Positions 30,609 through 58,762 of a DNA stretch of 64,000 nt are shown here, one piece after another. The position numbers and the translations under genes were made by a program. How positions within the stretch are numbered: position 1 is the stretch's first letter; every line of letters begins with the position of its first letter. The stretch comes from Occultella gossypii (GTDB taxonomy: Bacteria; Actinomycetota; Actinomycetes; Actinomycetales; Beutenbergiaceae), in assembly GCF_019947135.1 (NCBI RefSeq), contig NZ_JAGSHT010000011.1, positions 1 to 64,000 of the forward strand. The letters are read 5' to 3'. The notes under the pieces were generated by a model. That model did not search any database. It saw only the letters and a list, made by a program, of their open reading frames with translations, and was not told where the DNA came from.

Positions 30609-32438
30609 CTACGCCATGCCCGCCGGAGTTGCGAACACCGTCCAGGGCACCGTCGCGCTGACGGTGTCAGGTGCGACGCGTAGCGGCTCGATCTCGAGCG
30701 ACTCGATCAGGTCGAGGTTGCCCTCGCTCCACTCGATCAGCTCTCGCCGGGTGCTCGCCAGTCGCGCGAGCAGACCGGCGTAGCGGCGTTGGAGGACCTC
30801 CCAGCCGAAGACCTTGTTGTCCGCGAGCCACCGGTCGCGGTGCGCCTGCTCGAGTCGTGCGACGGCGGTCTCCACCTCCGGCACGAGCTCCGTCGCCAGG
30901 CGTTTCGCCGCAAGGCGGTCGCCGGCCAGGTAGGCGGGACGTAGAGCAAGGTGAAGCTCCGTCTTCAGCCCGAGCGCCCGGCACAGCTGGGCGATGACCC
31001 CGAGCCGCCGATCCGGGCCGCTCGAGGTCTCGGCGAGACTCAGCCGCGCACCGAGCTTGTGCATCCGCTCGGCGACCTCGTCCGAGAGCCCGATCTCCCC
31101 GAACGAGATCAGTGGGTCCAGCCACAGCAGCCACTTGCTGGGGTTCGGCGGTTCGATGGCACCCGTGCGATCGGTGTCGTCGAACGGGTCGTCGATCTCC
31201 GACGCCGCCACCCACAACTCCTGACTCACCCCGAGGGAAGCAAGACCGGCGTCCGTCTCCTGCGCGGTCAGTCCGTACGCGCGGTCCGCCGCGTGGGCGA
31301 GCGCAGGCAGGCAGGAGAAGTAGTCGCACTCGTTTCCGTCGTTGCCCCACATCGTGATCATCGCCTCGTCCACGCCGGCGGCGATCGCCCCGCCGACGGC
31401 AGCGGTGCAGGCAGTGATCGACTCCGGCAGCCGCGTCCAAAGCCGACCCCAGCTCGCGCACCCACCGGCCATCACCGTGGGCAGCGGTTGATGCTGGCGC
31501 AGCTTCTGCGCGTAGTAGGAGTCGGTGTGATGGAAGTAGTCCCAGTACACCAGCGTGAGGCCGTGCGGCAGGGCGTCCAGCGTCTGCGTCGCGATGGTGC
31601 GGTCGGTGCGGTAGTAGTCCTTCGCGCCGTGCTCGACGTCGAAGAGCATGTCGCTCCACATCATCGGCTCGACCCCCAGCTCGCGGCAGATCGCGGCGAC
31701 GTCGTCGACGTGCCGCAGGAACCAGCCCATGCGGTCGGACGGGTCGGGGGCGCCGTCCGCGAACCCGTACGCCTCATCCAGGCCGAGGTGTACCCGCGCC
31801 GACCGGAACGGAGCCGTCGCGGCGGAGATCATCGCCCGGATCAGCTCCAAGCCGCCCTCGTCCCCGATGCGGATCACCTCCGGTGCGACGCGGATCCCGG
31901 CGAACGGCGGCCACTTCAGGATCTGTCGCAGGTGCCCGAGGGTCTGGATCACCGGCACGACCTCGATGCCGAAGCCGTGCGCGATGTCATCGATCCGGCG
32001 GAGCTCGTCCTGGCTGTACCGACCGCGCCCGTGGCCGATGTACGGCTGACCCGGAACCTCGTAGGTGTCTTCGAGGTAGAGGTACAGCGTCGAGTAGCCC
32101 ATGAGCGCGGCGCTCGCGAGGTACCGCTCCACGGTCTCCACCCTCATCACGGCGTTGCGGGACATGTCGATCATCACGCTGAGTCGCCGCAGCTCCCTCT
32201 GTGCGTGGATCGCCCGGATCGTGGTCGGCTCCTCGCGGAGCGCGAGCGCTGCCCGCATCGCGTCCGCGAGGGCGTGGTAGCTCACCCGGGTCGCGTTCTC
32301 GCCGTGGTCGACGGCGAACCCCGCCTCTGCCTGTACGGACAGTTCCGCGCTCTCCCAGCGCCGCACCTGCTCCTGGGAGCTCACGAGCTCCAGGGCACGT
32401 CGTACCGATGCCCGTACCTGTTCATGGTCGTTGCTCAC
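30609..32438 (-). CDS. GH20-like beta-N-acetylhexosaminidase (paralogue 1)
   Basis: 609 residues from GTG 32438, which overlaps the upstream stop by four bases (GTGA) and has GGAG 8 nt before it; the in-frame ATG 32447 is less well supported. Catalytic barrel: MIDMSRNAVM strand, YLYLEDTYEVPGQPYIGHGR, IQTLGHLRQIL, and the GH20 Asp-Glu pair in VHLGLDEAYG (residues 221-222). Trp-rich strands MMWSDMLFD and ITMWGNDGNE complete the pocket. No signal peptide, so it acts on imported HexNAc oligosaccharides. Last gene of the ROK-divergent operon. Clearly paralogous to the protein at 44725, probably 35-45% identical by eye. Confidence 0.82.
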   Translation of the reverse strand: MSNDHEQVRASVRRALELVSSQEQVRRWESAELSVQAEAGFAVDHGENATRVSYHALADAMRAALALREEPTTIRAIHAQRELRRLSVMIDMSRNAVMRVETVERYLASAALMGYSTLYLYLEDTYEVPGQPYIGHGRGRYSQDELRRIDDIAHGFGIEVVPVIQTLGHLRQILKWPPFAGIRVAPEVIRIGDEGGLELIRAMISAATAPFRSARVHLGLDEAYGFADGAPDPSDRMGWFLRHVDDVAAICRELGVEPMMWSDMLFDVEHGAKDYYRTDRTIATQTLDALPHGLTLVYWDYFHHTDSYYAQKLRQHQPLPTVMAGGCASWGRLWTRLPESITACTAAVGGAIAAGVDEAMITMWGNDGNECDYFSCLPALAHAADRAYGLTAQETDAGLASLGVSQELWVAASEIDDPFDDTDRTGAIEPPNPSKWLLWLDPLISFGEIGLSDEVAERMHKLGARLSLAETSSGPDRRLGVIAQLCRALGLKTELHLALRPAYLAGDRLAAKRLATELVPEVETAVARLEQAHRDRWLADNKVFGWEVLQRRYAGLLARLASTRRELIEWSEGNLDLIESLEIEPLRVAPDTVSATVPWTVFATPAGMA

Positions 32439-35400
32439 GTGTCGCACTCCATCTCGCTCTCTGCTGCTTCCAGCCGCTCGGCACGGACCGCATCCGCACG
32501 CAGTCTGCCCGTGTCCAAACCCGTCAGGGCAACCGCTACGGTCGCCGCGTCCAGGTCCCAGATCCCGAGCTCGATCCAGGCCGAACCCTCACGCTGGTCC
32601 AGCTCGACCTCAGCCTGCCCGCCGGCGTGGGTGACCTGGTAGACGGCACGGGTGCTGTTGTTGATCTCTCCCGGGAACCAGACGCTGACGAGGTAGCGAC
32701 CATTCGCGGGCAGCGCGGGCGTCCACGCGGCCGTCCCGGCCGTCGCCGGCGCGATCCACCGAGTGACGCCGCCGTCCCAGCCACGCAGATTGGACTGCGC
32801 CCAGGCGCCGGTCTCTGCGTACGCGCTTGCGCCACTCCCGGTATCGATGACCACCTGGTTGGTGGGATCGACCTCGCCGACGGCGACGATCGCCGTCGTG
32901 GTCAGCTCACCCAGGGTCACGGTCACCTCGTGCAAGGCCCCGACGGCGGCGCTCGCCGATGCTTGGACGGCCACCTCGATCGTCTGCTCGCCACCGGCGG
33001 CGACGTCGACGTCGACCGCGCCCGGGGCGGCGCTCCAGCCGGCGGGCACCCCGATTGAGAGGCAGCCTGCAACGCCTGCCGCCGGCCCCGCCGCAACAGT
33101 GATCGTCACTGTGGTCGTCCCGCCGGGGGCCGCGACATCTTCCGCGCTCACCAACAGGTTCGCGTCGAGATCGGCGTCGGTGACGGGACGGAACCGGACC
33201 GCACTGGTGCGATGGGTCCCGGCGTCCAACACTTCGAGATAGACGTCGCCGCTGCGACCGGCCGCGAAATCGTAGTACCCGAGCGATCGCCATGCGCCGC
33301 CGCCCGACGTCTGGTCCACCACCACGGTGTCCGCACCGCCTCCATGCCGGACCACGAACGCCGCCTGCGTGGTCGAGACGGTGTGGGCGGGGTACCAGAC
33401 CGACACCTCGTAGGACCCCGCCTCGGGGATGTCCGGAACCCAGCGGGCGGTGCCACCGAGGAGGCTGTCGAGGTTGTAGCGGCTGCGGGTGCCGCCCCAG
33501 CCGGCGAGACCGCTGAAGCGCCACTGCCCGGTCTCCTGGTACTGCGGCCAAGGGCTCTGCACGTGCACCACCTGCGGCTCGGTGGCGACCGCGACGGCGA
33601 CGTTCGCCGACCAGATGCCGTCCAGGTTCGCGGTGAAGCGGGGGCTGGTCCCCCACGGCAGCTCCGTCGGGGCGGTCACCGTGACCGTGTGGCGCCCGAT
33701 GTCCCCCGCCGGCACGCTCACCTGCGCGGTCGGTACGTCGATCGCCCAGCCGGCCGGGCCGGAGATCGTGACCGGGATGTCGAGTGGCTGGGAGCCGGGA
33801 TTGCTCACGGTCGCGGTCACCGCGAACTGCTGCCCGGGCTCGGCAACCCGCGGCATGCCGGCGATCACGCCGATGAGGCGCCGCGGGTCGCGAACGGTGA
33901 GCTGGAACGGCTCCGACTGCGCCGAGCCGCCGGCCCAGGTGACCGTGGCCGCGAGCGCCACGTCACCGGTCGGCTCGCCCGCCGGCACCGTGACGTCGTA
34001 GGTCCAGCTTGCCGCTCCGAAGGCCGGGATCGGGTCGGTCGGCGCGGCATCAGGTGCCGGCGTCCAGCCGCTCGGCAGGCCGAGGTCGACGGCGGTGCTC
34101 GCGAGCGCGGTTGACGTCCCGTTGCGCACCGTCACCCGGACCGAGACGTCGGCGCCCGCGACCGTGGTGCTGGGTGCGTCGACGTCCACGAGCACGTCCG
34201 CGACGGTGTGGGTTCCGGTCTGCGCAGCGGGCAGCCGGAGCGTCACCGGGTCGGTGGTGACCGCATCGGCGACGACCCGATAGCTGAAGGATGCGGTGAT
34301 CCCATCGACCGGAATGGTCCACTCGTAGGGATACGGCTGCACCGCCGACGGCACCCAGGTCCCCTCGTCGATCCGGTGCTCGAGCGTGACCTCCTCGAGG
34401 CTGTCGACCAGCACGTACGCGTCGTAGCCGGCATTTCGACCTGCGCGCGGCAGCAGCACCCCGCGCACGATCCCGAGGTTCGCATCTGCGGGCCGGGCAT
34501 GGAAGGTCGTGGTGCCGTGATCGCCGTCGACCGCCGGCACGTGCCAGGGCGCGCGGACCTCGACGTCTCGGGCGGCGAGCGCCACGATGCCGTGCGGCGG
34601 CACCGTGACGGAGATCTGCCCGGCCGGCAGGGACGCCGTCGGGCTCGCCGGCTCGCTGACCGTCTGGACGTCAACGAGATCGCCCGGTTGCAGACCCACG
34701 AGGTCGGTCGCGAGAGAGATGGTGACGGCCTGCGCTGCGCCGGTGGTGTTGGTGAGGCTGAGATATAGCGAGCCGTTGCCGACCCCGGTCAGCCAGTTGA
34801 CCGCCGGGTTGTCGACCTCGACGATGCCGCGGGGGAACCACGGCCACACGCCGTCCTCGCCGTAGAACGTGCCCGGCGCGTGGCCGAACAGGGTGTACCG
34901 GAAGTAGACGTAGTCCGCCTCGTGCACGCCCGGGAAGTCGATCTGCCCGGCAGAGCGCACCGTGTGTTCGGAGACCAGGTAGTCGATCGTCATCCCGATC
35001 TGGGCAGGCATGTGGTGGGGGTAGATCGCCGTGACTCCGCTGGGGCCCTGGAGCGGGAAGTCCGGCTTCATCTGGATCGTCTGGAAGTCGCGGCTGTAGT
35101 AGCCGGGGTAGTTCGTGTACCGCCCGATCACCATGTTGTGGGCGAGGTCGACGATCAGGTCGTCGTCGACGTAGTGGCCGAGCCGCAGCAACACGCCTGC
35201 GTAGCAGGGGTTGAACACGAAACCACCGCCGGCGTTGACACTGGCCGACGTGCTGATCTTGTACGTGGACAGGCCCTCGATGCCGAGCCCGGTCGTCGAG
35301 ACGTACCAGGCCGGCACCGTCTCGACCTCGACGTCGGTTCGGGGGTACGCCGGGAGCCCGTCGGATGGCCAGTCGTACTGCTGCATCGCAACCGGGGGCT

Positions 35401-37153
35401 CCCCTACTGTCACCTCACCCTCGGGTACCGGGCGAAGCATCACCTGGGTGATGAAGCGCTGCGCCTCGCGGTACGCGGCCGCCAGGATGTCGGCCTCGCC
35501 CGTCACCTCGTACAGCACGACGAGGTCGGACCAGAACCTGCTGTTGCTGATCCAGAACGACCGCTCCTCCGTGACCAGGGTGTACGGCGCGTCGATCTCG
35601 TGCTCGATGTAGTCCCGAGCCAGGCGCAGTGCTGCGGTGAGGTGGGAGCCATCGCGCGTCAACTGGTAGGCGGCGAGCTCGACGGCGAACCGGGGCCGGT
35701 CCCTGCCGACCTCGTCCGCCGCGATGCTCTCGACACCGAGCCGCCGGATCCCGCCGGCCCGGTGCCCGCTGAGCTCGTATAGGGCGTTCAGCATGATCGC
35801 GTCGCCGGCGACGTAGCCGAGCCGGTGCTGGTTGGCCACCTGCCCCGGCTTACTCAGCGGCGAGTACGCGATGCTGCCGCGGGAGAGCTGGTACTCGACC
35901 ATGGGTCGCGCCCTGTGCTCGTAGAGCGGTGCGTCGTCCGCGGTCGAGGTGAGCAGGTGCGCCGACTGCAGCACGCCACCCGCGGCGACCCGGATGTCAT
36001 CCGTGATCTCGACGTTCATGAAGCCCTTCGCGCGGCTCCACCAGCCGGAGAACGAGGGGACGAAGTCCTCGCTGTCCTCGGACGCCGGCTCGACGACGGC
36101 GAGGTCGAGCATGGTGTGGATGGTGTCCGTGAGCGAGGAGCCGTAGACGTTGCTGCGGTACGCGCGATAGTCGTAGACCTCCCGCGCGAGCGCGGTGAAG
36201 CTCTCATAGAGCGAGCCCGGGAAGGCGCAGATCCCGAACGTGAAACCGCGGCTCTCGCCGGCAGTCATGGCGGCACGCAGTCCCGGTTGCGGCGCGTAGA
36301 TCGTGGGCGTGATGTCGAGCGAGTCGTTGCGCAGACTCATCCCGAAGGGCTGGTCGTCACCCCCGATGGCCTGCTCGTGCTCGAACTCCAGCACCTCGGC
36401 AGGCACGAACACCCCCGTGGTGAGCGGTCCGCCGTCGATCTCTCGTTGGGTGAGCGCCATCGGCGCGAACAACTCCCACGCGCCACGTGGCTGCGGATCG
36501 GGGAGGACCACCTTCGCGTGCTGCTGCGCCCCGCAGAGCACCTCGTCTACGCCGGCGAGATCGGTCACCTCACCCGACTGGTAGGCCACCACGAACTCGC
36601 CGTCGGTCTGAGCGGTGATCACGAACTGCGCCTCGGGGTGGTCGCCGTCGAGGGTCCACTGCACCACCAGTTCGAACACGGTGGGGTCGCCGGCACGCAA
36701 CTCCACCGAGTTCGCGCCGCTGCGTCGCAACTCTCCGAAGCCGACCCAGTGCGGTGTCGAGCGCGGGTGTCCCGGGGTGCCGTGCTGGTACACCACCCAC
36801 TGCTCGTCCAGGCGCCTATCCGGGTCGGTGGCGGCGATCCAGGCGCCGTCTCGCCGGACCTCGAGGTCGCGCACGATCGTCGCGCCGCCTCGCCACCGCG
36901 CCTGCGAGAACGTCATCCGGTACCGGTCGCTCTCGAGGCGGGCGAGGCGGCGGATGTGCAGGTTCGGGGTCTCCAGTCGACGTAGCGGGTCAGCCAGCGT
37001 GGTGGACCGCCGGCGGGTGGGCGCCGCGGCCGCGGGTTGCACGCCGATCGCGGTCGGCAGCACGGCAGCGCCCAGGAGCAAGCCGATCGCCTGCCGCCTG
37101 CTCATGCCGCGTGGTGTCCCGGGTGCCGTGGGCTCACCTGATGTCGTCGTCAT
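32435..37153 (-). CDS. Giant Tat-exported multimodular protein, putative novel polysaccharide-active enzyme (paralogue A)
   Basis: 1572 residues; ATG 37153 with AGGAG 8 nt upstream. Tat signal SRRQAIGLLLGAAVLP (residues 18-33). Residues 50-330 are beta-rich (EVLCGAQQH, AWELFAPM, QPFGMSLRN); 340-790 helical and highly conserved with the paralogue (FVPSFSGWWSRAKGF, YTNYPGYYSRDF, FGHAPGTFYG). The C-terminal half holds Ig/NEW3-like domains (about 1000-1190, 1330-1425) and two golvesin/Xly-type modules (about 1195-1320, 1435-1560; YQETGQWRFSGLAGWGG, AETGAWAQSNLRGWDGG). I recognise no catalytic family. The layout suggests an extracellular hydrolase or lyase held on its substrate by the C-terminal modules. 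It overlaps the GH20 gene by GTGA. Confidence 0.7.
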   Translation of the reverse strand: MTTTSGEPTAPGTPRGMSRRQAIGLLLGAAVLPTAIGVQPAAAAPTRRRSTTLADPLRRLETPNLHIRRLARLESDRYRMTFSQARWRGGATIVRDLEVRRDGAWIAATDPDRRLDEQWVVYQHGTPGHPRSTPHWVGFGELRRSGANSVELRAGDPTVFELVVQWTLDGDHPEAQFVITAQTDGEFVVAYQSGEVTDLAGVDEVLCGAQQHAKVVLPDPQPRGAWELFAPMALTQREIDGGPLTTGVFVPAEVLEFEHEQAIGGDDQPFGMSLRNDSLDITPTIYAPQPGLRAAMTAGESRGFTFGICAFPGSLYESFTALAREVYDYRAYRSNVYGSSLTDTIHTMLDLAVVEPASEDSEDFVPSFSGWWSRAKGFMNVEITDDIRVAAGGVLQSAHLLTSTADDAPLYEHRARPMVEYQLSRGSIAYSPLSKPGQVANQHRLGYVAGDAIMLNALYELSGHRAGGIRRLGVESIAADEVGRDRPRFAVELAAYQLTRDGSHLTAALRLARDYIEHEIDAPYTLVTEERSFWISNSRFWSDLVVLYEVTGEADILAAAYREAQRFITQVMLRPVPEGEVTVGEPPVAMQQYDWPSDGLPAYPRTDVEVETVPAWYVSTTGLGIEGLSTYKISTSASVNAGGGFVFNPCYAGVLLRLGHYVDDDLIVDLAHNMVIGRYTNYPGYYSRDFQTIQMKPDFPLQGPSGVTAIYPHHMPAQIGMTIDYLVSEHTVRSAGQIDFPGVHEADYVYFRYTLFGHAPGTFYGEDGVWPWFPRGIVEVDNPAVNWLTGVGNGSLYLSLTNTTGAAQAVTISLATDLVGLQPGDLVDVQTVSEPASPTASLPAGQISVTVPPHGIVALAARDVEVRAPWHVPAVDGDHGTTTFHARPADANLGIVRGVLLPRAGRNAGYDAYVLVDSLEEVTLEHRIDEGTWVPSAVQPYPYEWTIPVDGITASFSYRVVADAVTTDPVTLRLPAAQTGTHTVADVLVDVDAPSTTVAGADVSVRVTVRNGTSTALASTAVDLGLPSGWTPAPDAAPTDPIPAFGAASWTYDVTVPAGEPTGDVALAATVTWAGGSAQSEPFQLTVRDPRRLIGVIAGMPRVAEPGQQFAVTATVSNPGSQPLDIPVTISGPAGWAIDVPTAQVSVPAGDIGRHTVTVTAPTELPWGTSPRFTANLDGIWSANVAVAVATEPQVVHVQSPWPQYQETGQWRFSGLAGWGGTRSRYNLDSLLGGTARWVPDIPEAGSYEVSVWYPAHTVSTTQAAFVVRHGGGADTVVVDQTSGGGAWRSLGYYDFAAGRSGDVYLEVLDAGTHRTSAVRFRPVTDADLDANLLVSAEDVAAPGGTTTVTITVAAGPAAGVAGCLSIGVPAGWSAAPGAVDVDVAAGGEQTIEVAVQASASAAVGALHEVTVTLGELTTTAIVAVGEVDPTNQVVIDTGSGASAYAETGAWAQSNLRGWDGGVTRWIAPATAGTAAWTPALPANGRYLVSVWFPGEINNSTRAVYQVTHAGGQAEVELDQREGSAWIELGIWDLDAATVAVALTGLDTGRLRADAVRAERLEAAESEMECDT

Positions 37154-37192
37154 GCGCTGTCTCCTCGCTTCGTCGCGGATGGGATGCGGTGG

Positions 37193-38806
37193 TCAGTACG
37201 CGCGGACCTGGGGCCAGGCGAGTTGGATGCCGGCCCGCTCAAGGTCGCGCTGCAGGTCGTGGGTGAGACGTTCGTCGGCATGGATCTGCTGCGGCGCGTG
37301 GCCCGACTCGATCCCGCGAGCGGCCAGGTGGCCGGCGACCTCGCCGATGTTCCACTCCACGGGGTGCAGCCGGTAGCAGCCGTTGGTGATGTGGGTGGTG
37401 CCGATGTTCTTGCAGGCCGGGAGCAGGTTCCGCAGCCGGACCGGCACCAGCGCACCGAGCGGGATCTGGAACGGGGAACTGGCCACGTCGATGTAGTTGT
37501 CGCCGCCGGTGGAGGGGTGCAGGTCGATGCGGTACATCCCGATCCCGACCACGTCGTCGTATCGGCGAGCGCCCGCGTCGCCGCGCACCGCGTACGACAC
37601 GTCCTGTTCGGCGATCCGGGTCCTGGCGACGATGCGCCGGCTCTCGCGGTGATAGGGCGCCTGCGCCAGTCCGTCGGCCGAACCGAGCAGGTCACCTCGC
37701 AGACGCAGACCGGGAAAGCCGGTGCCGCCGTCGGACCGCGGGGCCTCGGTCTGCATCCAATACAGCATCGAACGGCTCAACTGCTTCGCATCCGCGAGCC
37801 GCGCTGCTGCTACGTCCTCGGGTACGTCGATCACCGGCCCTTCGAAGTAGTCGATGCTCGGCCAGTTCACGAGCGTGACGTCGCTCGCGACGTGGCCGGG
37901 CTCGAACATCTCGCGCGCAACGATCCGGCGGAACGTCCACAGGTTGACGTCGCCGCCCTGCTTGGACTGGTCGGCATCGACCGCCAGCACGTCGTCACCA
38001 GGGTTCGGGTCGAACACGCGTGGGAGCGGCTCCAGGGTGCGCGGGTTCGGTGCCGAGAAGCTCAGCAGGGGAGAGCCCCAGAAGTCGGGCTGCACCGACC
38101 GCCAGTGCTCGTACTGCTCCGGCCGGTCGATCGCGTGGTCGCCATCGACGTGGTCGACGGCGAAGCAGTAGCTCAGCGCCTGGATGTTCTCGGGATTCGC
38201 GATGGCGGGCGCGCTCGGCTCGCCGGTCTCTGACTGCGCCTCGGCCCCTACGCTGTACTCCGTTCCCGTGAGCGGCAGCAGTTCGCCGGTCTCGGTCGCG
38301 TCGATGACGTAGCTCGCCGCCACTGCGAACTCAGCGCCGGTGCGCAGGTCACGCAGGGTGACGGCCCGTACCCGGTCGCCATCGACATCGGCGCCAACCG
38401 GCCGGACCGGCTGCAGGACCCGCAATGCACCCGAGGTCCGCCAGGGGGCGAGAAGCTCCTCGATGACCGCTACGGCGACCCGGGGCTCGTGGCAGAGCTT
38501 GCTCACCCAACCCGCGCCCGGGTTGAGGTACCGCTGCGCACGGGCCGCGTCGGTGAGGGGGTAGTTCGCCCGGTAGTACCCGCGGATCCGGTCCCGCAGG
38601 TCCAGGTAGGTGCGGGTGGCGCCGAACATCTCGATCCACGGGTGCTCGTCCGGAGGGACCGCCTGCGACGTCAGCTGCCCGCCGAGCCAGGCGTACTCCT
38701 CGGTCAGCACCACGGCGTGTCCGCGCCGCAGCGCGGTGAGCGCCGCCGCCACACCGCCGAGCCCACCACCCACCACGAGGATGTCGGAACGCATGTCCAA
38801 GTGCAT
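37193..38806 (-). CDS. FAD-dependent oxidoreductase of a glycan-utilisation operon
   Basis: 537 residues. The N-terminal Rossmann FAD motif is ILVVGGGLGGVAAALTALRRG; a second FAD segment, VIDATETGELL, is typical of the FAD_oxidored group (PF12831). The C-terminal part keeps DVASSPFQIPLGALVP and NIGTTHITNGCYRLHPVEWN, conserved in the subfamily found beside glycoside hydrolases and ABC sugar transporters. Likely oxidises or dehydrates an unusual sugar or sugar acid in the cytoplasm. Start ATG 38806, 13 bp after the permease stop; ATG 38794 is an alternative. Confidence 0.82.
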   Translation of the reverse strand: MHLDMRSDILVVGGGLGGVAAALTALRRGHAVVLTEEYAWLGGQLTSQAVPPDEHPWIEMFGATRTYLDLRDRIRGYYRANYPLTDAARAQRYLNPGAGWVSKLCHEPRVAVAVIEELLAPWRTSGALRVLQPVRPVGADVDGDRVRAVTLRDLRTGAEFAVAASYVIDATETGELLPLTGTEYSVGAEAQSETGEPSAPAIANPENIQALSYCFAVDHVDGDHAIDRPEQYEHWRSVQPDFWGSPLLSFSAPNPRTLEPLPRVFDPNPGDDVLAVDADQSKQGGDVNLWTFRRIVAREMFEPGHVASDVTLVNWPSIDYFEGPVIDVPEDVAAARLADAKQLSRSMLYWMQTEAPRSDGGTGFPGLRLRGDLLGSADGLAQAPYHRESRRIVARTRIAEQDVSYAVRGDAGARRYDDVVGIGMYRIDLHPSTGGDNYIDVASSPFQIPLGALVPVRLRNLLPACKNIGTTHITNGCYRLHPVEWNIGEVAGHLAARGIESGHAPQQIHADERLTHDLQRDLERAGIQLAWPQVRAY

Positions 38807-47340: not shown

Positions 47341-47358
47341 AGTCTAGGTGAGCTCACC
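47341..47358 (-). promoter_or_regulatory. -10 box TAGACT and GGTGAGCTCACC palindrome before the IclR gene
   Basis: TAGACT (revcomp at 47341-47346) ends 6 nt before ATG 47334. The perfect 12-bp palindrome GGTGAGCTCACC at 47347-47358 abuts it on the spacer side and includes the GH42 stop codon. A bound IclR dimer here would block its own promoter. Confidence 0.6.
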
Positions 47359-49485: not shown

Positions 49486-50880
49486 GTGACTGGCCTCATC
49501 TCGCAACAGAACGTCTCGGGGGTCTTTCCCCACCTGGCACAGATCGGTGACCTCGGGCCGCCGCGCAGCGAGATCGGCGTCGGTGCGCTCATGCCGTGGG
49601 CGGGCGCGCTGTACGTGCAGAACTACAACTCGCACAAGCGCCAGAGCGGTGCCGGGGTGAGCCTGCGCAGGATCAGCTCCGACCTGTCGATGGAGGTCGT
49701 CCCGGAGACCCTTGGCATCGACGGCACCTACACGAACCGGTTTGTGCACTACCCGTCCAACCAGGTGATCATCGGGCCGCACGTCATCGATGCCGAGCAC
49801 AGGATCCGCACGGTGCCGGAGCTGGAGCCGATCCGCGTCTGCGGCACCACGCGGCACCTGACCGATCCCGAGAACCTCGTCTACGTGCTCGGCATGGAGG
49901 GTGAACTGTTCCAGCTGAACGTGCGCACCTTGGCGTGCGAGCAGGTGGCGGACCTCAACGTCGAACTCGGCACCGGCAACGGCGTGCGCGTCCACTACAA
50001 GGACTGCTACACGGGCTTCGGGCGGCTGGTCGTGTGCTCGAACGAGTATCACGAGGAGGACTGGGCGGGCGAGCGCAGCGAGGGCCGCCTCGCCGAGTTC
50101 GACGGCGAGCGCTGGACCGTGCTCGAGCGCAAGCCCTTCACCGCGATCAGCGGCCGCCACGAATTTGGCGGCACGATCTTCGCCAGCGGGTGGGATCAGG
50201 CCTCCGCGATCCTGAAGGTCTACACCGAGTCCGACGACACCTGGACCACCTACCGGCTCCCGAAGGCGTCGCACACGTTCGACCACAAGTGGCAGACCGA
50301 GTGGCCTCGCATCCGCGAGACCGAGCACGAGAGGCTGCTCATGGACCACCACGGCATGTTCTACGAGCTGTCACCGTGGGCGTACGGGGGCCGCATCTGG
50401 GGCGTCCGCCCGGTGTCGACCCACCTGTGGGTGCTGGGCGACTTCTGCTCCTGGCGCGGCATGCTCGTGCTCGGGGCCGACCACGCCTCCCCGAGCCGTG
50501 GCCTTAGCCCGACGACAGCGGAGCCCCAGTCGGGGCTCTGGATGGGCAAGACCGACGATCTGTGGAGTTTCGGCAAGCCCTCCGGGTGGGGCGGGCCATG
50601 GTGGATGGCGCCGGTCGCTGCCGGGGTGCCGTCGGACCCCTACCTGATGACCGGGTTCGAGAACAAGTGCGTGCACATCGAGAACCTGGGCACCCAAGAC
50701 GCCCGCTTCACGGTCGAGATCGACTTCCACGGACACGGGCGCTTCAGCAGGCACGCCACGTTCGACGTGCCGGCCGGGGAGACGGTGAGCCACACGTTCC
50801 CGACCGGCTTCTCCGCCCACTGGGTCCGCGTCGTCAGCGACACGGACACCACCGCGAGCGCGCAACTCTTCTACACCTGA
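49486..50880 (+). CDS. Uncharacterised protein of the glycan locus, probable beta-propeller or beta-sandwich
   Basis: 464 residues from GTG 49486 after AAGGAG. No signal peptide. Beta-rich and Trp/Tyr/His-rich throughout, with segments ALYVQNYNSHKRQSG, TYTNRFVHYPSNQVIIGPHV, NEYHEEDW, SGRHEFGGTIFASGWDQ and HHGMFYELSPWAYGG; a short beta-sandwich-like C-terminus (about 390-464). The His/Glu-rich conserved patches could form a metal or sugar site. Divergent from GH42 and sharing its operator, so a role in the same degradation pathway is likely. I do not recognise the family. Confidence 0.7.
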   Translation: MTGLISQQNVSGVFPHLAQIGDLGPPRSEIGVGALMPWAGALYVQNYNSHKRQSGAGVSLRRISSDLSMEVVPETLGIDGTYTNRFVHYPSNQVIIGPHVIDAEHRIRTVPELEPIRVCGTTRHLTDPENLVYVLGMEGELFQLNVRTLACEQVADLNVELGTGNGVRVHYKDCYTGFGRLVVCSNEYHEEDWAGERSEGRLAEFDGERWTVLERKPFTAISGRHEFGGTIFASGWDQASAILKVYTESDDTWTTYRLPKASHTFDHKWQTEWPRIRETEHERLLMDHHGMFYELSPWAYGGRIWGVRPVSTHLWVLGDFCSWRGMLVLGADHASPSRGLSPTTAEPQSGLWMGKTDDLWSFGKPSGWGGPWWMAPVAAGVPSDPYLMTGFENKCVHIENLGTQDARFTVEIDFHGHGRFSRHATFDVPAGETVSHTFPTGFSAHWVRVVSDTDTTASAQLFYT

Positions 50881-51201: not shown

Positions 51202-52548
51202 TCACGCGAGGAGGTCCTGCACCAGGACCACCTTTCCGTCGCGGAGCGAGAGGTTCACCGCGGCGCCGATCACACTGGACCTGATGCCGTCCTCGTATCC
51301 CGCCGCCCGACCGAGCGGGTCGTCCTCACCACGGAAGATCGCGCGGAGCATCATGTCGTCACCTCCCCCATGCGCGCCCTCGGCCCCGGGGATCGGGATC
51401 TCCAGGGCGGGCTCCCAGTGCCTCTGCAGGAGCACCCGCGAGCGATGCGGGCGGTAGCGGTCGTCGGGGTCACCGGCGGCCTCGGCGCTGGGGTCGAGCA
51501 CGAAGTACGGCCCGAGCAGCCCGGTCCCGCCGCTGGGCAGGTTCGACCCGCGCTCGACGACATCGATCTCGATCCGCCCCTCGGTGCCATTGATCCCGAC
51601 CCGGTAGCCCTCCCACGGGGAGTGCGCGCACAACGTGTACGCCAGCGACGCCCCGCCGCGGTAGGCGACCACGACGCTCAGATTGTCCTCGATGTCGATG
51701 CCCTCGCCGAACACGTCCTGGTCGCGGTGGTAGCCATCGATGCCCTCGGCGTCGAGGTACAACCCGCGCAGCCGTTCCTGGTCGGCCAGGTCGAACCGGA
51801 ACGGGTCGTCGGCGGGGAGGTCGCGCCCCAGCGCCGGCCGCTCCCCCAGCCCGCGACGCCGCGCGTTCTGCGCGCCGTAGAACTTCAGCCCGCCGGAGGC
51901 GAACACGCGCTCCGGGATGTCGGCGAGCCACCAGTTCACGAGGTCGAAGTGATGCGAGGACTTGTGCACCTCGAGCCCGCCGGACCTCGCCTTGTTGCGG
52001 TGCCAGCGGCGGAAGTAGTCGGCACCGTGCAGGGTGTCCAGGCACCACTCGAAGTGCACCGAGGTGACCTCACCGATGCGACCGGACGCGATGAGCTCCC
52101 GCACGAGGGCGTTGCGTGGTGAGTAGCGGTAGTTGAAGCCCACCCGCAGCGTGCCCGACGACTGCTCTGCAGCTCTTCGGATCGCCACCATCGACGGCCC
52201 GTCGATCGTCATCGGCTTTTCCGAGACGACGTCCAGGCCACGCTCCAGGCCGGCGACGATGTAGCGCGCATGGGTCGCGTCGACCGAGCTCACCACGAGC
52301 CCGTCCGGGCTGGTCTCGGCGACCATCCGCTCGAAGTCGTCCGGACCGTAGTGAAGGATCGGCTCGCTCTGCCCACTCTCGCGAGCGACGCCGTCGTAGT
52401 AATGCATCCGGACCTCGTTGGGGTCCACGAACGCGACGATCTGCCCGATGTCGCAGAAGGCTCCTGCGAGAGCCTTCACATACATCTCGGACCGGTGCCC
52501 GGTTCCGATGACGGCGAATCTGCGCCTCGGTGCGGCCGTGTCACTCAT
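51202..52548 (-). CDS. Gfo/Idh/MocA-family oxidoreductase (first)
   Basis: 448 residues. N-terminal Rossmann fold (RRRFAVIGTGHRSEMYVKAL), then VSEKPMT, the conserved Glu-Lys-Pro that positions the nicotinamide cofactor, and a C-terminal beta-sheet domain (GLEVHKSSHHFDLVNWWL, with a HHFD pair typical of catalytic His). Cytoplasmic NAD(P)-dependent dehydrogenase or a glycosidase acting by oxidation. It lies 75 bp downstream of the second giant protein and is probably in its operon. Substrate unknown; a sugar or sugar acid is expected. Confidence 0.88.
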   Translation of the reverse strand: MSDTAAPRRRFAVIGTGHRSEMYVKALAGAFCDIGQIVAFVDPNEVRMHYYDGVARESGQSEPILHYGPDDFERMVAETSPDGLVVSSVDATHARYIVAGLERGLDVVSEKPMTIDGPSMVAIRRAAEQSSGTLRVGFNYRYSPRNALVRELIASGRIGEVTSVHFEWCLDTLHGADYFRRWHRNKARSGGLEVHKSSHHFDLVNWWLADIPERVFASGGLKFYGAQNARRRGLGERPALGRDLPADDPFRFDLADQERLRGLYLDAEGIDGYHRDQDVFGEGIDIEDNLSVVVAYRGGASLAYTLCAHSPWEGYRVGINGTEGRIEIDVVERGSNLPSGGTGLLGPYFVLDPSAEAAGDPDDRYRPHRSRVLLQRHWEPALEIPIPGAEGAHGGGDDMMLRAIFRGEDDPLGRAAGYEDGIRSSVIGAAVNLSLRDGKVVLVQDLLA

Positions 52549-52623
52549 GCGGGGTCTGACCTCTGGGTTCGGGTGAGCAGGGACTGCGGGCCTCGGACCG
52601 CACGAACTCACGTCGGTGGCCAC

Positions 52624-55600
52624 TCAGCTACCAGCGAGAGTGAACGTGGTCGTCGTGGTGTTGCCTGCCCTGTCGTAGACCACGAGCGTGTTCTCGCCGA
52701 CGACGGCTCCGAAGGTGCCCGGCTCGACGAAGTTGATGTCCGACCACGCGTTGTCGGTCAGGTCCCGCTCGACGTCGTTGAGGATGAACCGGTCGATCCC
52801 CCCCTCGTCGAACAGCTTGAAACTGACCATCTCGTAGGCACCCGAGTCACCGGTCGTGAACTCGGGACCGGACTTGACTGTGACGGTCGGGGCGGTGGCG
52901 TCGATTGTGACCGGGAACTCCTTCGTCTGCGAGACGTTCCCGATCGAGTCGTGGGCGTTGTACCGGATCAGGTACGCACCGTCCGGTAGCTGCACTGTCG
53001 CGGTGTGGGTGGATGCTCGCAGGTCGTCCACCGCTGTCTGCGTGCTCTGCACGAGCTCACCACCCTGGTAGATGTTCGCCACGATCTTCCGGAGGCCGAC
53101 GGCGTCGGTAGCGTCTACCCGGATCGCCAACTCACGGAACGGCCCGGCGGTGGCCGGCGCCACGAGCATCGTCTCCGGGCGGGCCGTGTCCGGCAGCAGC
53201 CGGAACCGCGCGGCGTTGGTGCGCGTGTGGGAGTCCCCGGTCGCCATGGCACGGACGGCGACGCGATCGCCAGGAACCATGTCGTAGTTCCCGATGACCC
53301 GCCAATCACCGGCGCCCTCGCGCATGTTCACCTGATAGGCCTCGACAAGCTCCCCCGCCGTGACGGTGAACCGTACGTCCGTCGATGTGACCGCATGGTT
53401 CGGGTACCACACCGATACCTCGTACGAGCCTGTTTCGTAGATCGTTGCCGACCACTCCACCTCGGCTCCGAGGACCCCCTCGGGGTTGTACTTCGTGGCC
53501 GAGCCGCTCCATCCCGGCAGTGAACTCGCCAGCCACGAGCCGATCTCCCGATAGCCCGGACGCGCCGGCGTGACGATCTGCTCGGCAGGGTCAAGCAACG
53601 GCAACGACACCTGCTTCTCGGCAAGCCCGGCACCCGGCGAGATCGCTAGCTTCCCTATGACACCGGTAGCAACATCCGGTGTCAGGGTGACCGCGACCTC
53701 TACGAGGTCCCGGCCGGGGGCGCTCCACGGGATCGACGTACTCGACGCGGTCCACCCCTGCGGAACCACCAGGGTGGCCGTCCCGCTTCTCGGCTGCGGA
53801 CTGCGGTTCATCAGCACCATCGTGACCGTCAACGGGTCATGGGGCCCATCACTGCGGTACTGCCCGATACCCAGATCCAGCACCTCCAACGCGGAGAAGA
53901 CCTCGATCTGTGTCGGGTCGAGAATCGTCCGATGGGAGCTACCGCCCTCATCGAGCCAGGTGAGGCTCGCGGTCAGGTTCCGGGTCATCACCGAGGTGCC
54001 CAACGGCGGCGTCACCACGAACACCTCGTCCCGCACCTCGCCGGCGGCCATGCTGACGACCACGTCGTCGCGGTCGATCGACCAGCCCGAGGGCAGGTAC
54101 AGGTCGAGGCCAGCATCGTTGAACGCCACCGACGTACGCAGCCGAGCCGTCAGCGTGAACGACCCGAGCGCCGTCGTCGACCCGACCTCGGTCAGCAGCT
54201 CACCACCGACCTGATACCCGCGTGACGGGAGTCCGGTCACGCTGCCTGGTAGCCACAGCGTGCGCTCGGGACGCGTCTCGCCGTCGACGGTGACCTGATA
54301 GGTGAACGTAGCTACCGGATCATCGACCCCAACGGTCCACTCGTAGGGGAACACCTTCGAGGCGTCCTCCTGCCACGGCCCGCGACCGACGCGGTATCGG
54401 ACCGACACCACGCTCGTGTGCGGTGCACTGCACTGCAGGAAGGCGTCATAGCCGGAACGGTCCGGGCGAGGGATCAGCATCCCGTACATGCGGTCGTCGG
54501 CGGTCTGGTTTCCTTCACCACCATCGTCAAAGTCGTCCAGGTGGTAGGAGACTGTCGAACGGTCGACGACGTCTTGCTCCACCTGCCAGGGCATCAGCAC
54601 CCCGGCACCGGGGACGCTCAATGCCACATGGCCGTGCGCCGGCAGCGTGACGTCGAGCGATCCGCCGACGACGCGGCCACTCGTCGTCCCTGCATCTGTG
54701 TGGATGACGAGGTCGTAGCTCTCCGCGGGATCGACGCCTGTCAGGGCTTCATCGAACGTGACCCGACCGCTCTGGGCGGTGCCCGAGGCGTTCGTCAGAC
54801 TGAGATGGAACGCATTCTCCGAGACGGCGGTCACCCAGTTGAGCTGTGGGTTGCTCGCGGTGACAATGCCGCGCGGGAAGAACGGCCAGGCACCCTCGGT
54901 GCCGTAGAACGTCCCCGGGGCGTGACCGTACGTGTGGTACTTGAAGTAGACGAAAACGCACTCGAAGGTGGACGGGAACGCGATCCCGCCCGCGGAAGCG
55001 GCCTCGTGCTCGGCGATCAGGTGATGGATCGCCAGCCCCAGCTGCGCCGGGATGTGGTGGTAGTAGATGGATGCGAGCTCCGCGGGGCCCTCGTAGGGGT
55101 AGTCGGGACTGGACTGCCACGCGACGAGCTGCCGGTTGTAGTAGCCCGGGTAGGTCGTGAAGCGACCCACGACCATGGCATTGACCAGATCGCGCATGAA
55201 GTCGTCGTCGACGAGCGCGGCCAACCGAGCCAGGAACGGTGCCAGCACGGGGTTGAGACGCAGGCCGCCGCCGGTGTTCGGTTCTCGCAACCACGTCGCG
55301 AGAGCCTCGTAGGTCAGCCCGGTGGTCGACACCTCCCAGGCGTCGACCGTCTCCGTTGGCGGCTCGGTGCGCGAGTACTCGGGCTTGCCCCACTTGCCGT
55401 ACGTGCTCAGATCGAGCTCGCCCACCGGAGATGTCACAGTGCCGGATGGGATCGGGCGCAGGTGGAACTGCGCAGTGAAGTGCTTGGCAGCCCGGTAGGC
55501 GGCCTGAAGGAACTCGTCGTCCTCGGTCAGGTCGTACAGCTCCAGCAGCTCGATCCATGGGCCGATGGCCTCGAGGCCGAACTGATCGATGCTGGCGCTC

Positions 55601-57201
55601 GTCGTCGCCGGACTCTGCGCCTGCTGCCGCAGGTAGCGCTTGCCGAGCGCGCTCGCCTCCGCGAGCCAGCCCGGGTCACCGGTCAGCTGGTAGGCGCCGA
55701 GCGCACGACTGAACGGGGTGCGCGATCGCGGGTCGTATATCCGGGCTGCGACCAACGACTTCATGGCGATTCGCTGCAAGCCGGCCGTCCTGCCCTGGAG
55801 AGCGACGGACAGAGCGCTGATGGTGTTGATGTCACCGGCACCGATCCCGCACAGCGGCTGATCCCGTGCCGCCCCCGGCACGGGCGAGTATCCGATCTCG
55901 CGGCGCGAGATGATGTGCTCCGCGGTGGGGCGCGCACGCCGGTCCCAGAACATGGTGGCCTGCTCCCCGGCCGTGGCGATGAGGTTGGCACTGAGCAGCA
56001 CACTCGAGGTCGACGTGCGGGTCTGCTGATCGTGCTCGATGTTGCAGAAGCTCTTGGCCCGCGACCACCAGCCAGAGAAGGAGGGGACGAAGTCGACGGA
56101 GTCATCGCCGTCGGGCTCCAGACCGACCAGATCGATGAGGTTGTGCACGGTGTCGGTCATCGATTGACCATGGACGTTGCTCCGGTAGCGCGTGAAGCCG
56201 TACTCCTCGCGCGAGATCGCCACCTGTGTCTCGTACAGCGGTTCCGGCCTGAGCGCGATCGCGAACGCGTACCCGATGGACTCTCCCTCTGAGAGCGCGG
56301 CACGCTCGCCACCGGCCGGCGCCGAGACACACGCTTGAATGTGTTCGCTCGTGTTCCGCAGGCTCATGCCGAACGGCTGGCCGCTCCAGCCCTGGTACGG
56401 ATGCTCGAACTCGAGCACGTCGGCCGGGATGTAGACGCCGGAAGTCACGGTGTGCCCCGCGACCGTGGACTGCAGCAATGACATCGGCGCGAAGAGCTCC
56501 CACGCCATCGGCTCCTGCCAGTCGATCACGCGCGAGTGCTGCCGCGGCCCACACAGCACCTCGTCGACGTCGTCCTCGTCCAGCACCACACCGGACCAGT
56601 ACCCGAGCACGAAACTGTCGTCGCGCAGCGCGGTCAGGCTCCACTGGATCTCGGGCATCGCGCCCGAGACGTCCCACCTCATCACGACCTCCGCCGCGTC
56701 CGGAACCGAGGCGGTCAGCTCGGCCACCGTGTCGGAGAGGAAGGTCACGGACCGAACCGTCAGCCAGTGCGGGTCGCCCGTCCCGTAGAAGGTGCCGCCC
56801 ATCGGCTGCCCGGTGTAGATCACCCACTGCTCGTCGAACCGCTGCAACTCGGTGTTCAGCCTCACCCACTGCGAGCCCACCCGGAGCTCGAGGTCACGCA
56901 CGACAGCTGTCCGTGTGGTCCCGCCGTCGTCGTCCCAGGCGGCCCGGAAGAACCCGATGCGATGGTGGTCGCCCGTGATCGACCCGAGCATGGTCATCCG
57001 GACATCGGCCTTGGGCAGGTCCGCGAGCGGGAGGTCGGTGACGCCCGGTTCGACGGGATCGGCAAACGCCGGCGACGGATGCAGGAGTCCGTCGGGCAGC
57101 ACGGAAGGGAGCACTCCTGCCGTCAGCAGCAGGCCGATCGCGGATCGGCGTGACAGTCCTCGCCTCGCAGTCTCATGGTCGTCGTTACCTGCATGGGTCA
57201 T
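52624..57201 (-). CDS. Giant Tat-exported multimodular protein, putative novel polysaccharide-active enzyme (paralogue B)
   Basis: About 1525 residues from ATG 57201, 8 nt after GGGAG; ATG 57207 is too close to that site. Tat signal LSRRSAIGLLLTAGVLP. The N-terminal 800 residues follow paralogue A closely: VDEVLCGPRQHSRV, AWELFAPMSLLQS, PFGMSLRNTS, FVPSFSGWWSRAKSF, YTTYPGYYN-like FTTYPGYYNRQ, YGHAPGTFYG. Then NEW3-like beta domains, one golvesin/Xly-type module near 1235-1365 (YREIGSWLASSLPGWSG), and two C-terminal Ig-like domains (DGAYLIRYNAHDSIGN, ENTLVVYDRAGNTT) in place of the second golvesin module. Extracellular; catalytic family not recognised. Confidence 0.7.
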   Translation of the reverse strand: MTHAGNDDHETARRGLSRRSAIGLLLTAGVLPSVLPDGLLHPSPAFADPVEPGVTDLPLADLPKADVRMTMLGSITGDHHRIGFFRAAWDDDGGTTRTAVVRDLELRVGSQWVRLNTELQRFDEQWVIYTGQPMGGTFYGTGDPHWLTVRSVTFLSDTVAELTASVPDAAEVVMRWDVSGAMPEIQWSLTALRDDSFVLGYWSGVVLDEDDVDEVLCGPRQHSRVIDWQEPMAWELFAPMSLLQSTVAGHTVTSGVYIPADVLEFEHPYQGWSGQPFGMSLRNTSEHIQACVSAPAGGERAALSEGESIGYAFAIALRPEPLYETQVAISREEYGFTRYRSNVHGQSMTDTVHNLIDLVGLEPDGDDSVDFVPSFSGWWSRAKSFCNIEHDQQTRTSTSSVLLSANLIATAGEQATMFWDRRARPTAEHIISRREIGYSPVPGAARDQPLCGIGAGDINTISALSVALQGRTAGLQRIAMKSLVAARIYDPRSRTPFSRALGAYQLTGDPGWLAEASALGKRYLRQQAQSPATTSASIDQFGLEAIGPWIELLELYDLTEDDEFLQAAYRAAKHFTAQFHLRPIPSGTVTSPVGELDLSTYGKWGKPEYSRTEPPTETVDAWEVSTTGLTYEALATWLREPNTGGGLRLNPVLAPFLARLAALVDDDFMRDLVNAMVVGRFTTYPGYYNRQLVAWQSSPDYPYEGPAELASIYYHHIPAQLGLAIHHLIAEHEAASAGGIAFPSTFECVFVYFKYHTYGHAPGTFYGTEGAWPFFPRGIVTASNPQLNWVTAVSENAFHLSLTNASGTAQSGRVTFDEALTGVDPAESYDLVIHTDAGTTSGRVVGGSLDVTLPAHGHVALSVPGAGVLMPWQVEQDVVDRSTVSYHLDDFDDGGEGNQTADDRMYGMLIPRPDRSGYDAFLQCSAPHTSVVSVRYRVGRGPWQEDASKVFPYEWTVGVDDPVATFTYQVTVDGETRPERTLWLPGSVTGLPSRGYQVGGELLTEVGSTTALGSFTLTARLRTSVAFNDAGLDLYLPSGWSIDRDDVVVSMAAGEVRDEVFVVTPPLGTSVMTRNLTASLTWLDEGGSSHRTILDPTQIEVFSALEVLDLGIGQYRSDGPHDPLTVTMVLMNRSPQPRSGTATLVVPQGWTASSTSIPWSAPGRDLVEVAVTLTPDVATGVIGKLAISPGAGLAEKQVSLPLLDPAEQIVTPARPGYREIGSWLASSLPGWSGSATKYNPEGVLGAEVEWSATIYETGSYEVSVWYPNHAVTSTDVRFTVTAGELVEAYQVNMREGAGDWRVIGNYDMVPGDRVAVRAMATGDSHTRTNAARFRLLPDTARPETMLVAPATAGPFRELAIRVDATDAVGLRKIVANIYQGGELVQSTQTAVDDLRASTHTATVQLPDGAYLIRYNAHDSIGNVSQTKEFPVTIDATAPTVTVKSGPEFTTGDSGAYEMVSFKLFDEGGIDRFILNDVERDLTDNAWSDINFVEPGTFGAVVGENTLVVYDRAGNTTTTTFTLAGS

Positions 57202-57544: not shown

Positions 57545-58762
57545 TCACCAGTTCGGCTTCGCCGGCCCCGCTCCGAGGTCGGGGATCGGCAGCCGCACGC
57601 CGCCCTGCTTGGCCGACTCGTAGGCGACCACGCCGGGAAGGGTGAACCGGGCCGCCGTCCAGGCGTTGATCGGGGGCTGGGTGTTCGTGGTGACGCCGCG
57701 GACGAAGTCGTCCGCGAGGAAGTGGTGCGCGCCCTCGTGTCCGTTGTGGGCGCCGTCGAACTCCTTCGGCAGCCGCGAGGAGTCGTGGACCTTCGCCAGA
57801 CCGGAGCTGAAGCTCTGCATCAGGGCCGGGTCGACGTCACCGAAGTCCTCGGGCAGCTGCCCGGCCTTGGTGTGGAACAGGTCGCTGATGTCGAGGGTGG
57901 CGCCCTTGGCGTAGTCCTCGCCCTCGGTCTTGACGCTCAGGGTCGCGCCCGAGCCGGTCTGCTCCATGACGGCCTCAGTGCCGAAGAAGCGGAACCGCGA
58001 CTCGTGGCCCTTCCAGTAGCCGACCCGACGGAACTCGTTGGTGCGCATGGCCCCGCCGTCGGCGAGGTCGAACAGCGCGGTCATGTTGGAGAAGGTGTTG
58101 CCCCACCGGGACACGTCCGCGTCGAAGACGCCGTCGCCGCGGTCGTCGACGATGCCGATGCAACTCACGCTCGTCGCGTACGTGGGCAGCGCGCCCAGCA
58201 CGCCGCCGATCGCGTGCGTCGGGTACAGCATCGGCGGGTAGCTGGCCGTCGACTTCCAGTCCTCCCCGCCGCTGTAGCGGTAGGCGGCGTAGAAGCCGTT
58301 ATCCATGTCGTGCACATAGTCGCCCTCGGAGTAGAACACGCGGCCGAGCTCGCCCGCGCCGATCTTCTCCCGCGCCCACACCACGGCGGGGTTGTAGTAG
58401 CTCGTCTCCCCCATCATGTAGATCAGCCCGGTCGCTTCGACCTCCGCCACGATCGCGGTGATCTCCTGCTCCGTCATCGCCATCGGCACCGACGAGTACA
58501 CGTGCTTGCCCGCCCGCAGTGCTTGCAGCACCAACTCGCCGTGGCTCCACCGCTGGGTCATCACGGCGACGGCGTCCACGTCGGACGCGAGCAGCTCCTC
58601 CGCGGTCGCGAACGAGCCGGCAAGGCCGTACTTCTCCACGTGTTCCGCGGCCCGCTCCTGGACGAGGTCGCAGACGTAGACCGCCTCGACGTCCGGGTGG
58701 AGCTGCCACAAGGAGATGAAACTGCGCGCGAACTGGCCGGTTCCGATGACGCCGATCTTCAT
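57545..58762 (-). CDS. Gfo/Idh/MocA-family oxidoreductase (second)
   Basis: 405 residues from ATG 58762, with AGGA 7 nt upstream. Rossmann motif IGVIGTGQFARSFISL at the N-terminus. The usual EKP motif is replaced by SSVPMAMT, an unusual change at the cofactor lysine. It continues with ETSYYNPAVVWAREK, GDYVHDMDNGFY and LYPTHAIGGVLG, the last with the catalytic-type His. Not a close relative of the Gfo/Idh/MocA protein at 51202. Cytoplasmic sugar dehydrogenase or redox-assisted glycosidase, inferred. Confidence 0.86.
   Translation of the reverse strand: MKIGVIGTGQFARSFISLWQLHPDVEAVYVCDLVQERAAEHVEKYGLAGSFATAEELLASDVDAVAVMTQRWSHGELVLQALRAGKHVYSSVPMAMTEQEITAIVAEVEATGLIYMMGETSYYNPAVVWAREKIGAGELGRVFYSEGDYVHDMDNGFYAAYRYSGGEDWKSTASYPPMLYPTHAIGGVLGALPTYATSVSCIGIVDDRGDGVFDADVSRWGNTFSNMTALFDLADGGAMRTNEFRRVGYWKGHESRFRFFGTEAVMEQTGSGATLSVKTEGEDYAKGATLDISDLFHTKAGQLPEDFGDVDPALMQSFSSGLAKVHDSSRLPKEFDGAHNGHEGAHHFLADDFVRGVTTNTQPPINAWTAARFTLPGVVAYESAKQGGVRLPIPDLGAGPAKPNW

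Follow-up and report, generated by a model that had tools for sequence, protein, structure and literature searches.

We analysed a 64,000-nucleotide stretch of the Occultella gossypii genome (RefSeq assembly GCF_019947135.1, contig NZ_JAGSHT010000011.1, positions 1 to 64,000; hereafter the window), which sits in contig 33 of a 5.84-Mb genome. The subject of this analysis is a locus at positions 30609..58762 with two genes for giant, predicted exported proteins, which we call giants 1 and 2. A first-pass annotation, made from the letters alone, had listed ROK and IclR regulators, an ABC importer, two GH20 genes, a GH42 gene, a propeller likened to PL22, an FAD oxidoreductase, two Gfo/Idh/MocA enzymes and the two giants, and Pfam searches found every one of these gene types within the locus. 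A tight minus-strand run extends from 43294 down to 30609, in which we counted seven genes rather than the eight first proposed. It begins with a propeller-like protein of 382 amino acids (42146..43294) and continues with an ABC solute-binding protein (40653..42116; PF13416, E = 1.7e-29), ABC sugar permease 1 (39719..40642; PF00528, E = 8.1e-13), ABC sugar permease 2 (38820..39722; PF00528, E = 2e-12), an FAD-dependent oxidoreductase of 537 amino acids (37193..38806; PF12831, E = 2.5e-102), giant 1 (32435..37153; 1572 amino acids) and GH20a, a GH20C-type β-N-acetylhexosaminidase (30609..32447). With the start codons chosen here, genes in the run overlap by 13 or 4 base pairs or are separated by gaps of 10 to 39 base pairs, spacings that depend on that choice, including the starts of the FAD oxidoreductase (38806), the permeases and the binding protein.

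The ROK-family regulator (43465..44661, plus strand; PF00480, E = 3.8e-36) is divergent from this run and precedes GH20b, a second GH20C-type hexosaminidase (44725..46611, plus strand). Beyond it lie an IclR-type regulator (46627..47334, minus strand; PF09339, E = 1.2e-7), a GH42 β-galactosidase (47354..49399, minus strand; PF02449, E = 3e-109) assigned by matches to PF02449 and PF08532 above their cut-offs, and a 464-amino-acid protein with no assigned function (49486..50880, plus strand; GC3 of 0.93; PF05506 below cut-off, E = 0.0019). The locus ends with three minus-strand genes: Gfo/Idh/MocA oxidoreductase 1 (51202..52548; PF02894, E = 4.5e-21), giant 2 (52624..57201; about 1525 amino acids) and Gfo/Idh/MocA oxidoreductase 2 (57545..58762; PF01408, E = 7.5e-19).

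Strong PF18088 matches (E = 3.9e-37 for GH20a, 8.6e-38 for GH20b) and a D-E motif in both translations place both hexosaminidases in the GH20C type of GH20. The GH20 catalytic model PF00728 scored above its cut-off of 22.3 bits for GH20b (25.4 bits) and 3 bits below it for GH20a (19.2 bits). The GH20a translation contains the motif HLGLDEAYG, in which we take the D-E pair to be the GH20 catalytic pair, and its N terminus, read by eye, showed no export signal. The propeller-like gene is present as annotated, but it matches the PL22 model PF14583 only marginally, below the family cut-off (E = 0.069; 12.3 bits, with the cut-off at 30). No PDB sequence matched this protein in a search up to E = 10, and among 396 Actinomycetota genomes it was matched in two, its own and one with a single fragment (E = 1.1e-4). 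By Pfam, the binding protein and the two permeases constitute a sugar ABC importer; no ABC ATPase was found among the scanned open reading frames of the locus. Outside the locus, a second ABC sugar permease pair (28099-29852, plus strand) is approximately 30% identical to the locus permeases and has counterparts past the GH20a end in two related genomes, G001 and Occultella aeris. Directly past the other end lie an ABC-2 type membrane protein and an ABC ATPase (58887-60685, minus strand), with a sub-cut-off match to the drug-exporter-type protein DrrA.

Conservation of the locus across Occultella

The first-pass annotation had proposed a comparison of gene order across Actinomycetota, on the view that conservation nowhere would speak against a functional locus. 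We found that the gene set and its order are collinear in two other Occultella genomes, G001 and O. aeris (G002), and because of this recurrence a chance association of the genes is unlikely. Identities between the window and these genomes were about 76-98% per gene, outside giant 2, the oxidoreductase slots and one piece of GH20b. The best conserved gene of the locus was Gfo/Idh/MocA-2, at 96% in G001 and 98% in O. aeris. In the same order, identities were 92% and 80% for the ROK regulator (in O. aeris over 335 residues, where the locus end truncates the match), 91% and 88% for the propeller-like protein, 90% and 89% for the 464-amino-acid protein (whose copy in these relatives lies between Gfo/Idh/MocA-2 and giant 2), 88% and 86% for the binding protein, 86% and 88% for GH20a, 82% and 83% for the core of giant 1, 81% and 82% for the IclR regulator and 76% and 77% for GH42; the permeases were at 88-91%. 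GH20b matched at 82% over 523 residues and 68% over 105 in G001, and at 80% in O. aeris. Giant 2 shared just 48-49% identity with its positional counterparts in G001 and O. aeris, and was nearer (57%) to a giant of a Propionibacteriaceae metagenome-assembled genome (MAG).

The comparison also showed that the oxidoreductases do not belong to the set in a fixed way, as all except Gfo/Idh/MocA-2 are exchangeable. Between giant 2 and GH42, the window has Gfo/Idh/MocA-1, where G001 and O. aeris carry a 767-amino-acid PF12831 FAD oxidoreductase, and no match to Gfo/Idh/MocA-1 was found in the syntenic stretches of either genome. The window has an intact copy of the FAD oxidoreductase within the run, an accessory gene whose place is not conserved; its counterpart in O. 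aeris is decayed (L030, about 5717-6600), and the G001 locus gave no match to it. Taken together, the identities and exchanges across the three genomes therefore define a stable part composed of the importer, the GH20C enzymes, GH42, the propeller, the regulators and the giants. A further species, O. glacieicola (G003), carries two giants, with no GH20 match in the two loci scanned.

The core shared by the two giant proteins

Giants 1 and 2 begin with a Tat-like twin-arginine sequence, MSRRQAIGLLLGAAVLP and LSRRSAIGLLLTAGVLP respectively, both read by eye, and their cores of approximately 930 amino acids belong to one family (40-42% identity). By Pfam, both proteins end in Golvesin_C modules, with two stretches in giant 1 and one in giant 2 (PF25275, E = 6.8e-17), and NPCBM_assoc scored above its cut-off in giant 1 and just below it in giant 2. 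The Golvesin stretch at residues 1236-1307 of giant 1 matched a Paenibacillus xanthan lyase among PDB sequences (6f2p, E = 2.2e-8); the likeness concerns this C-terminal module, and the core had no match to that enzyme.

The genome of O. gossypii encodes five members of the giant family, Occultella genomes carry up to six copies, and the family was present in 9 of 99 related genomes, the genome of O. gossypii included. A homologue survey with one genome per GTDB species yielded 148 coding stretches, of which the best 80 were kept, corresponding to 76 distinct loci; these best 80 came from five phyla (Actinomycetota, Bacillota, Bacteroidota, Verrucomicrobiota and Acidobacteriota). A plasmid collection searched with the core gave no match. 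The core alignment drew on 45 of the 76 loci, and the following comparisons refer to 47 core sequences.

At an E-value threshold of 0.01, no core matched an NCBIfam model, and Pfam gave scattered weak signals: the GH127 catalytic domain in 12 cores (best 2e-5), NPCBM_assoc in four, GH88 and Melibiase_C in two each, and GlcNAc 2-epimerase and GH30C in one each. A profile of the 47 cores gave weak matches in the PDB, the best of the 10 listed being α-1,6-mannanases (5e-4, approximately 85 positions). GH127 and the α-1,6-mannanases (GH76) are helical-barrel hydrolases, and the weak matches to them fall in the barrel region of the giant family. Membership of the giants in GH127 was rejected: neither giant had a match at 0.001, and giant 1 still had none at 0.01. 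A match of the giants to a known family with an unrelated substrate, which the first-pass annotation had held out as grounds for abandoning its reading, did not emerge from these searches. The core thus appears to fit no described family in the libraries searched (Pfam and NCBIfam), although a CAZy family without such a model may hold it. In the literature, with CAZy outside the search, we found no description of such a giant family or locus, including Golvesin in combination with a glycoside hydrolase, and the Occultella literature, judged by the titles listed, contained nothing on glycan use.

An AlphaFold model of giant 1 residues 40-1030 was confident (pLDDT 90.7, pTM 0.92) and predicts a mutarotase-like β-sandwich, an (α/α)6 helical barrel and β domains. 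Among the fold matches listed, those spanning sandwich and barrel included the PL26 exo-rhamnogalacturonan lyase PcRGLX (5xqg/5xq3), cellobionic acid phosphorylase and glucodextranase. Because the root-mean-square deviation from PL26 was about 26 Å, this likeness holds domain by domain. The fold matches prompted us to consider PL26 membership. A profile comparison with 11 PL26 proteins by hhalign rejected it (probability 0.6, E = 0.095), and the PcRGLX model of Pfam matched none of the 47 cores at 0.01. A true PL26 protein is encoded elsewhere in the same genome (L128, contig 35 near 330559; E = 3e-262 to PcRGLX). In predicted domain order the giants also resemble PL27, an L-rhamnose-α-1,4-D-glucuronate lyase for which the published description gives an N-terminal β-sandwich followed by an (α/α)6 barrel (PMC8377490); the comparison is with that description only. 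PL27 was absent from the 10 PDB sequence matches and 50 fold matches listed, which excludes nothing. A further point of likeness to PL27 is that rhamnosidase genes lie near two giant relatives. One of these, of family GH78, is near a paralogue in the O. gossypii genome (contig 5), with members of its cluster also in O. aeris and O. glacieicola, and the other, of family GH106, directly adjoins a Verrucomicrobia relative. Rhamnose as a component sugar is a secondary guess.

Residues R294, W332, R386, E587, R639, Y643, Y646, Y672 and H675 are invariant in all 47 cores, which without exception also have Glu or Asp at position 343 (core numbering; add 39 for the full protein). With several C-terminal β modules, the giants could in principle be large binding or surface proteins without catalysis. 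However, the 47 sequences, which come from five phyla, all keep the same pocket-type residues, and some relatives are bare cores without C-terminal modules, such as one of 938 amino acids in Pedobacter; we consider a non-catalytic role very improbable. The predicted structure of the core is confident and enzyme-like. This prediction, the recurrence of the locus, the lack of an NCBIfam match and the weakness of the Pfam signals, confined to some relatives, support the original description of a glycan-utilisation locus around two giants of no described family.

Elsewhere in the window, three very large open reading frames of 1595-1666 amino acids are located at 127-4914 (plus strand), 5213-10213 and 10519-15504 (both minus strand); two of them have LPXTG anchor matches together with SdrD_B or DUF7507/DUF11 repeats, and the third has no Pfam match. 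The window also encodes a right-handed β-helix protein of 448 amino acids (16022-17368, plus strand; Beta_helix, NosD) and a 985-amino-acid FAD-linked oxidase fused to 4Fe-4S domains (24402-27359, minus strand).

Gene neighbourhoods of the family and a proposed function

We analysed the neighbours of giant relatives by clustering of open reading frames, Pfam and cluster-profile searches at E = 1e-10. Of 83 loci scanned, 56 actinobacterial loci were counted, nine actinobacterial loci shorter than 18 kb were dropped, and a separate count was kept of 18 often short loci from other or unplaced phyla; neither the window nor the G001 copy of the locus was in the scanned set. The 20 control stretches were taken at round-number positions from seven genomes of the window's own family, whereas the giant loci span many families, and the controls are at some disadvantage because the profiles were built from clusters of the giant loci themselves. 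Among the counted loci, one record appears twice (as L037 and as L086), L044 overlaps L099, orthologous Occultella loci are counted separately, and 13 of the 56 are from Microbacterium.

Actinobacterial giant loci were rich in genes of sugar-acid catabolism: SDR proteins occurred in 42/56 (controls 3/20), MR/MLE in 41/56 (4/20), IclR in 41/56 (0/20), DHDPS in 40/56 (0/20) and SGL lactonase in 30/56 (1/20). Solute-binding proteins (45/56 versus 4/20), permeases (44/56 versus 6/20) and an AXE1-type acetylesterase (19/56 versus 0/20) were also frequent, and KDPG aldolase (15/56 versus 0/20) and PfkB kinase (5/56 versus 0/20) point to 2-keto-3-deoxy acids. MR/MLE, DHDPS, SDR and IclR were found jointly in 37/56 loci and in none of the controls, with 13/13 in Microbacterium, 3/3 in Micromonospora, 4/7 in Jiangella, 3/4 in Agromyces and smaller numbers elsewhere; without Microbacterium, MR/MLE remained at 28/43 and DHDPS at 27/43. 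Permease 1 of the window locus had a 63-69% identical counterpart at several of these loci, against approximately 30% identity at others, for example in Microbacterium. The O. gossypii genome itself has a second locus of this kind, L025 (contig 35, 40000-59999), with two divergent giants, MR/MLE, SGL, DHDPS, SDR, IclR and importer parts.

Curated names and PDB matches of the L025 proteins do not fix the monomer that such a pathway would process. The best score of the MR/MLE protein was with galactonate dehydratase (164.5 bits, cut-off 311), its PDB matches were just unassigned enolase-superfamily entries, and IclR scored best, below cut-off, with BhcR. The DHDPS protein matched an unnamed synthase entry in the PDB, the nearest named enzyme being L-2-keto-3-deoxyarabonate dehydratase, and SDR had no PDB match at 1e-30. 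The MR/MLE and DHDPS matches fit a reading in which the giants would work as exo-acting, inverting glycoside hydrolases and set free a neutral sugar, of a type such as rhamnose, galactose, fucose or arabinose. Other actinobacteria would then oxidise this sugar with the SDR, lactonase, enolase-family dehydratase and DHDPS-family enzyme encoded nearby. The classical type of the SDR, the lactonase frequency, the GH127 and α-1,6-mannanase signals, the hydrolases and phosphorylase among the fold matches and the acidic residues kept at 343 and 587 all suit this reading. It is opposed by the invariance of three Arg, three Tyr and one His, which we judge unusual for such enzymes, and by uronate-dehydrogenase-like genes at Jiangella loci, where one member of a cluster present in 6/8 loci had uronate dehydrogenase as its best PDB match. 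We regard neutral-sugar hydrolysis as a serious, if tentative, alternative.

A different target is suggested by the closest relatives of giant 1. In the tree, the Occultella giant 1 pair is sister (support 99) to two giants of the Propionibacteriaceae MAG (L068 and L073), both of which adjoin a GH20 gene and a protein of one cluster, a member of which is a solute-binding protein by Pfam. One of these sisters adjoins an FAD oxidoreductase 53% identical to that of the window, the PF12831 protein of the other is a more distant one and lies further away, and the MAG relative of giant 2 has a Gfo/Idh/MocA gene about 2.5 kb away. Giant 1 and GH20C therefore occur together in two families, and we encountered the gene set as a whole in three Occultella genomes, to which this MAG offers a partial parallel. 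The two GH20C genes and the GH42 gene within the locus, together with these sisters, would suit a host or microbial glycan of N-acetylhexosamine (HexNAc) and galactose (mucin-, keratan- or exopolysaccharide-like) from which the giants free HexNAc pieces for GH20C and GH42, by either lyase or hydrolase chemistry. However, GH20 was found in just 3/56 actinobacterial loci (controls 0/20), namely two O. aeris loci that overlap and one locus of the MAG, whose other such locus had been dropped for length, and in 0/18 loci of other or unplaced phyla; HexNAc is consequently no general theme of the giant family, and a HexNAc-galactose target seems to us rather doubtful.

The oxidoreductases might instead be central, with oxidation to a 3-keto sugar followed by elimination and the giants acting as lyases of, or binders for, the oxidised glycan. 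FAD and Gfo/Idh/MocA genes are present in the locus, both Gfo/Idh/MocA proteins are weakly similar to glycoside 3-dehydrogenase models, and 3/5 Bacteroidota loci contain a PF12831 FAD oxidoreductase, along with a sodium/solute symporter confirmed in one and SusC/D-like neighbours noted by eye. Yet the glycoside 3-dehydrogenase scores lie far under cut-off, the FAD gene of the run is decayed or missing in two relatives and its partner exchanged, and in actinobacteria the FAD family is hardly above background (5/56 versus 1/20). Such a route is unlikely.

We propose that the giants are, most probably, enzymes exported to open an acidic, uronate-containing heteroglycan, and we give about an even chance to the region being a locus that degrades, under regulation, a branched and acidic heteroglycan opened by the giants and finished in the cytosol. 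The giants would leave the cell by the Tat (twin-arginine) route and hold the polymer through C-terminal Golvesin_C modules of the type seen in a xanthan lyase. Cleavage would take place in a cleft of the (α/α)6 barrel lined by the invariant Arg, Tyr, His, Trp and Glu residues, with β-elimination next to a uronic acid slightly likelier than hydrolysis. The ABC importer would then take in oligosaccharides for GH20C, GH42, the PL22-like propeller and the FAD and Gfo/Idh/MocA oxidoreductases to finish in the cytosol, and ROK and IclR would control the locus. This proposal draws on the gene content, the collinearity of three genomes, the confident fold, the invariant residues and the recurrent sugar-acid catabolism neighbours in actinobacteria. 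The substrate first suggested, with HexNAc, β-galactose and uronate, is compatible with these data, but its HexNAc and galactose parts would follow solely from the local GH20C and GH42 genes, and its uronic acid part indirectly from the neighbours of relatives and the sub-threshold PL22 match.

Several observations weigh against this proposal. The carboxylates at 343 and 587 would suit an inverting hydrolase too; GH127 and the α-1,6-mannanases make hydrolases the nearest families by sequence, and hhalign found no sequence relation to PL26. A classical SDR and a DHDPS protein resembling L-2-keto-3-deoxyarabonate dehydratase could mean a neutral aldose, GH20C and GH42 give no pointer to uronates, and FAD oxidoreductases barely exceed the control frequency. 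The sugar-acid genes are also unevenly distributed: the window contains none of their cluster labels, the joint set is complete in 3/11 Occultella loci and 0/3 Propionibacteriaceae MAG loci, and none of MR/MLE, DHDPS, SDR and IclR was found in the 18 loci, many short, of other or unplaced phyla. For the giant core, we place a predicted lyase only a little ahead of a hydrolase.

With its regulators, importer, predicted exported large proteins and exo-enzymes, the locus has much in common with bacterial glycan-utilisation loci and is of a known general kind; its novelty is the core family and the conserved context. It is roughly an even call that the giant core represents an undescribed polysaccharide-degrading family of five phyla, with a conserved Arg/Tyr/His/Glu/Trp site in an (α/α)6 barrel, that in many actinobacteria feeds an importer and a sugar-acid pathway. 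The neighbour data suggest a short list of substrates, comprising rhamnogalacturonan-like, xanthan- or gellan-like and glucuronate-capped polymers. If the core is a carbohydrate-active enzyme, it would constitute a family across five phyla that has no curated Pfam or NCBIfam model, and it would offer enzymes with built-in carbohydrate-binding tails and access to an acidic glycan for enzymatic analysis.

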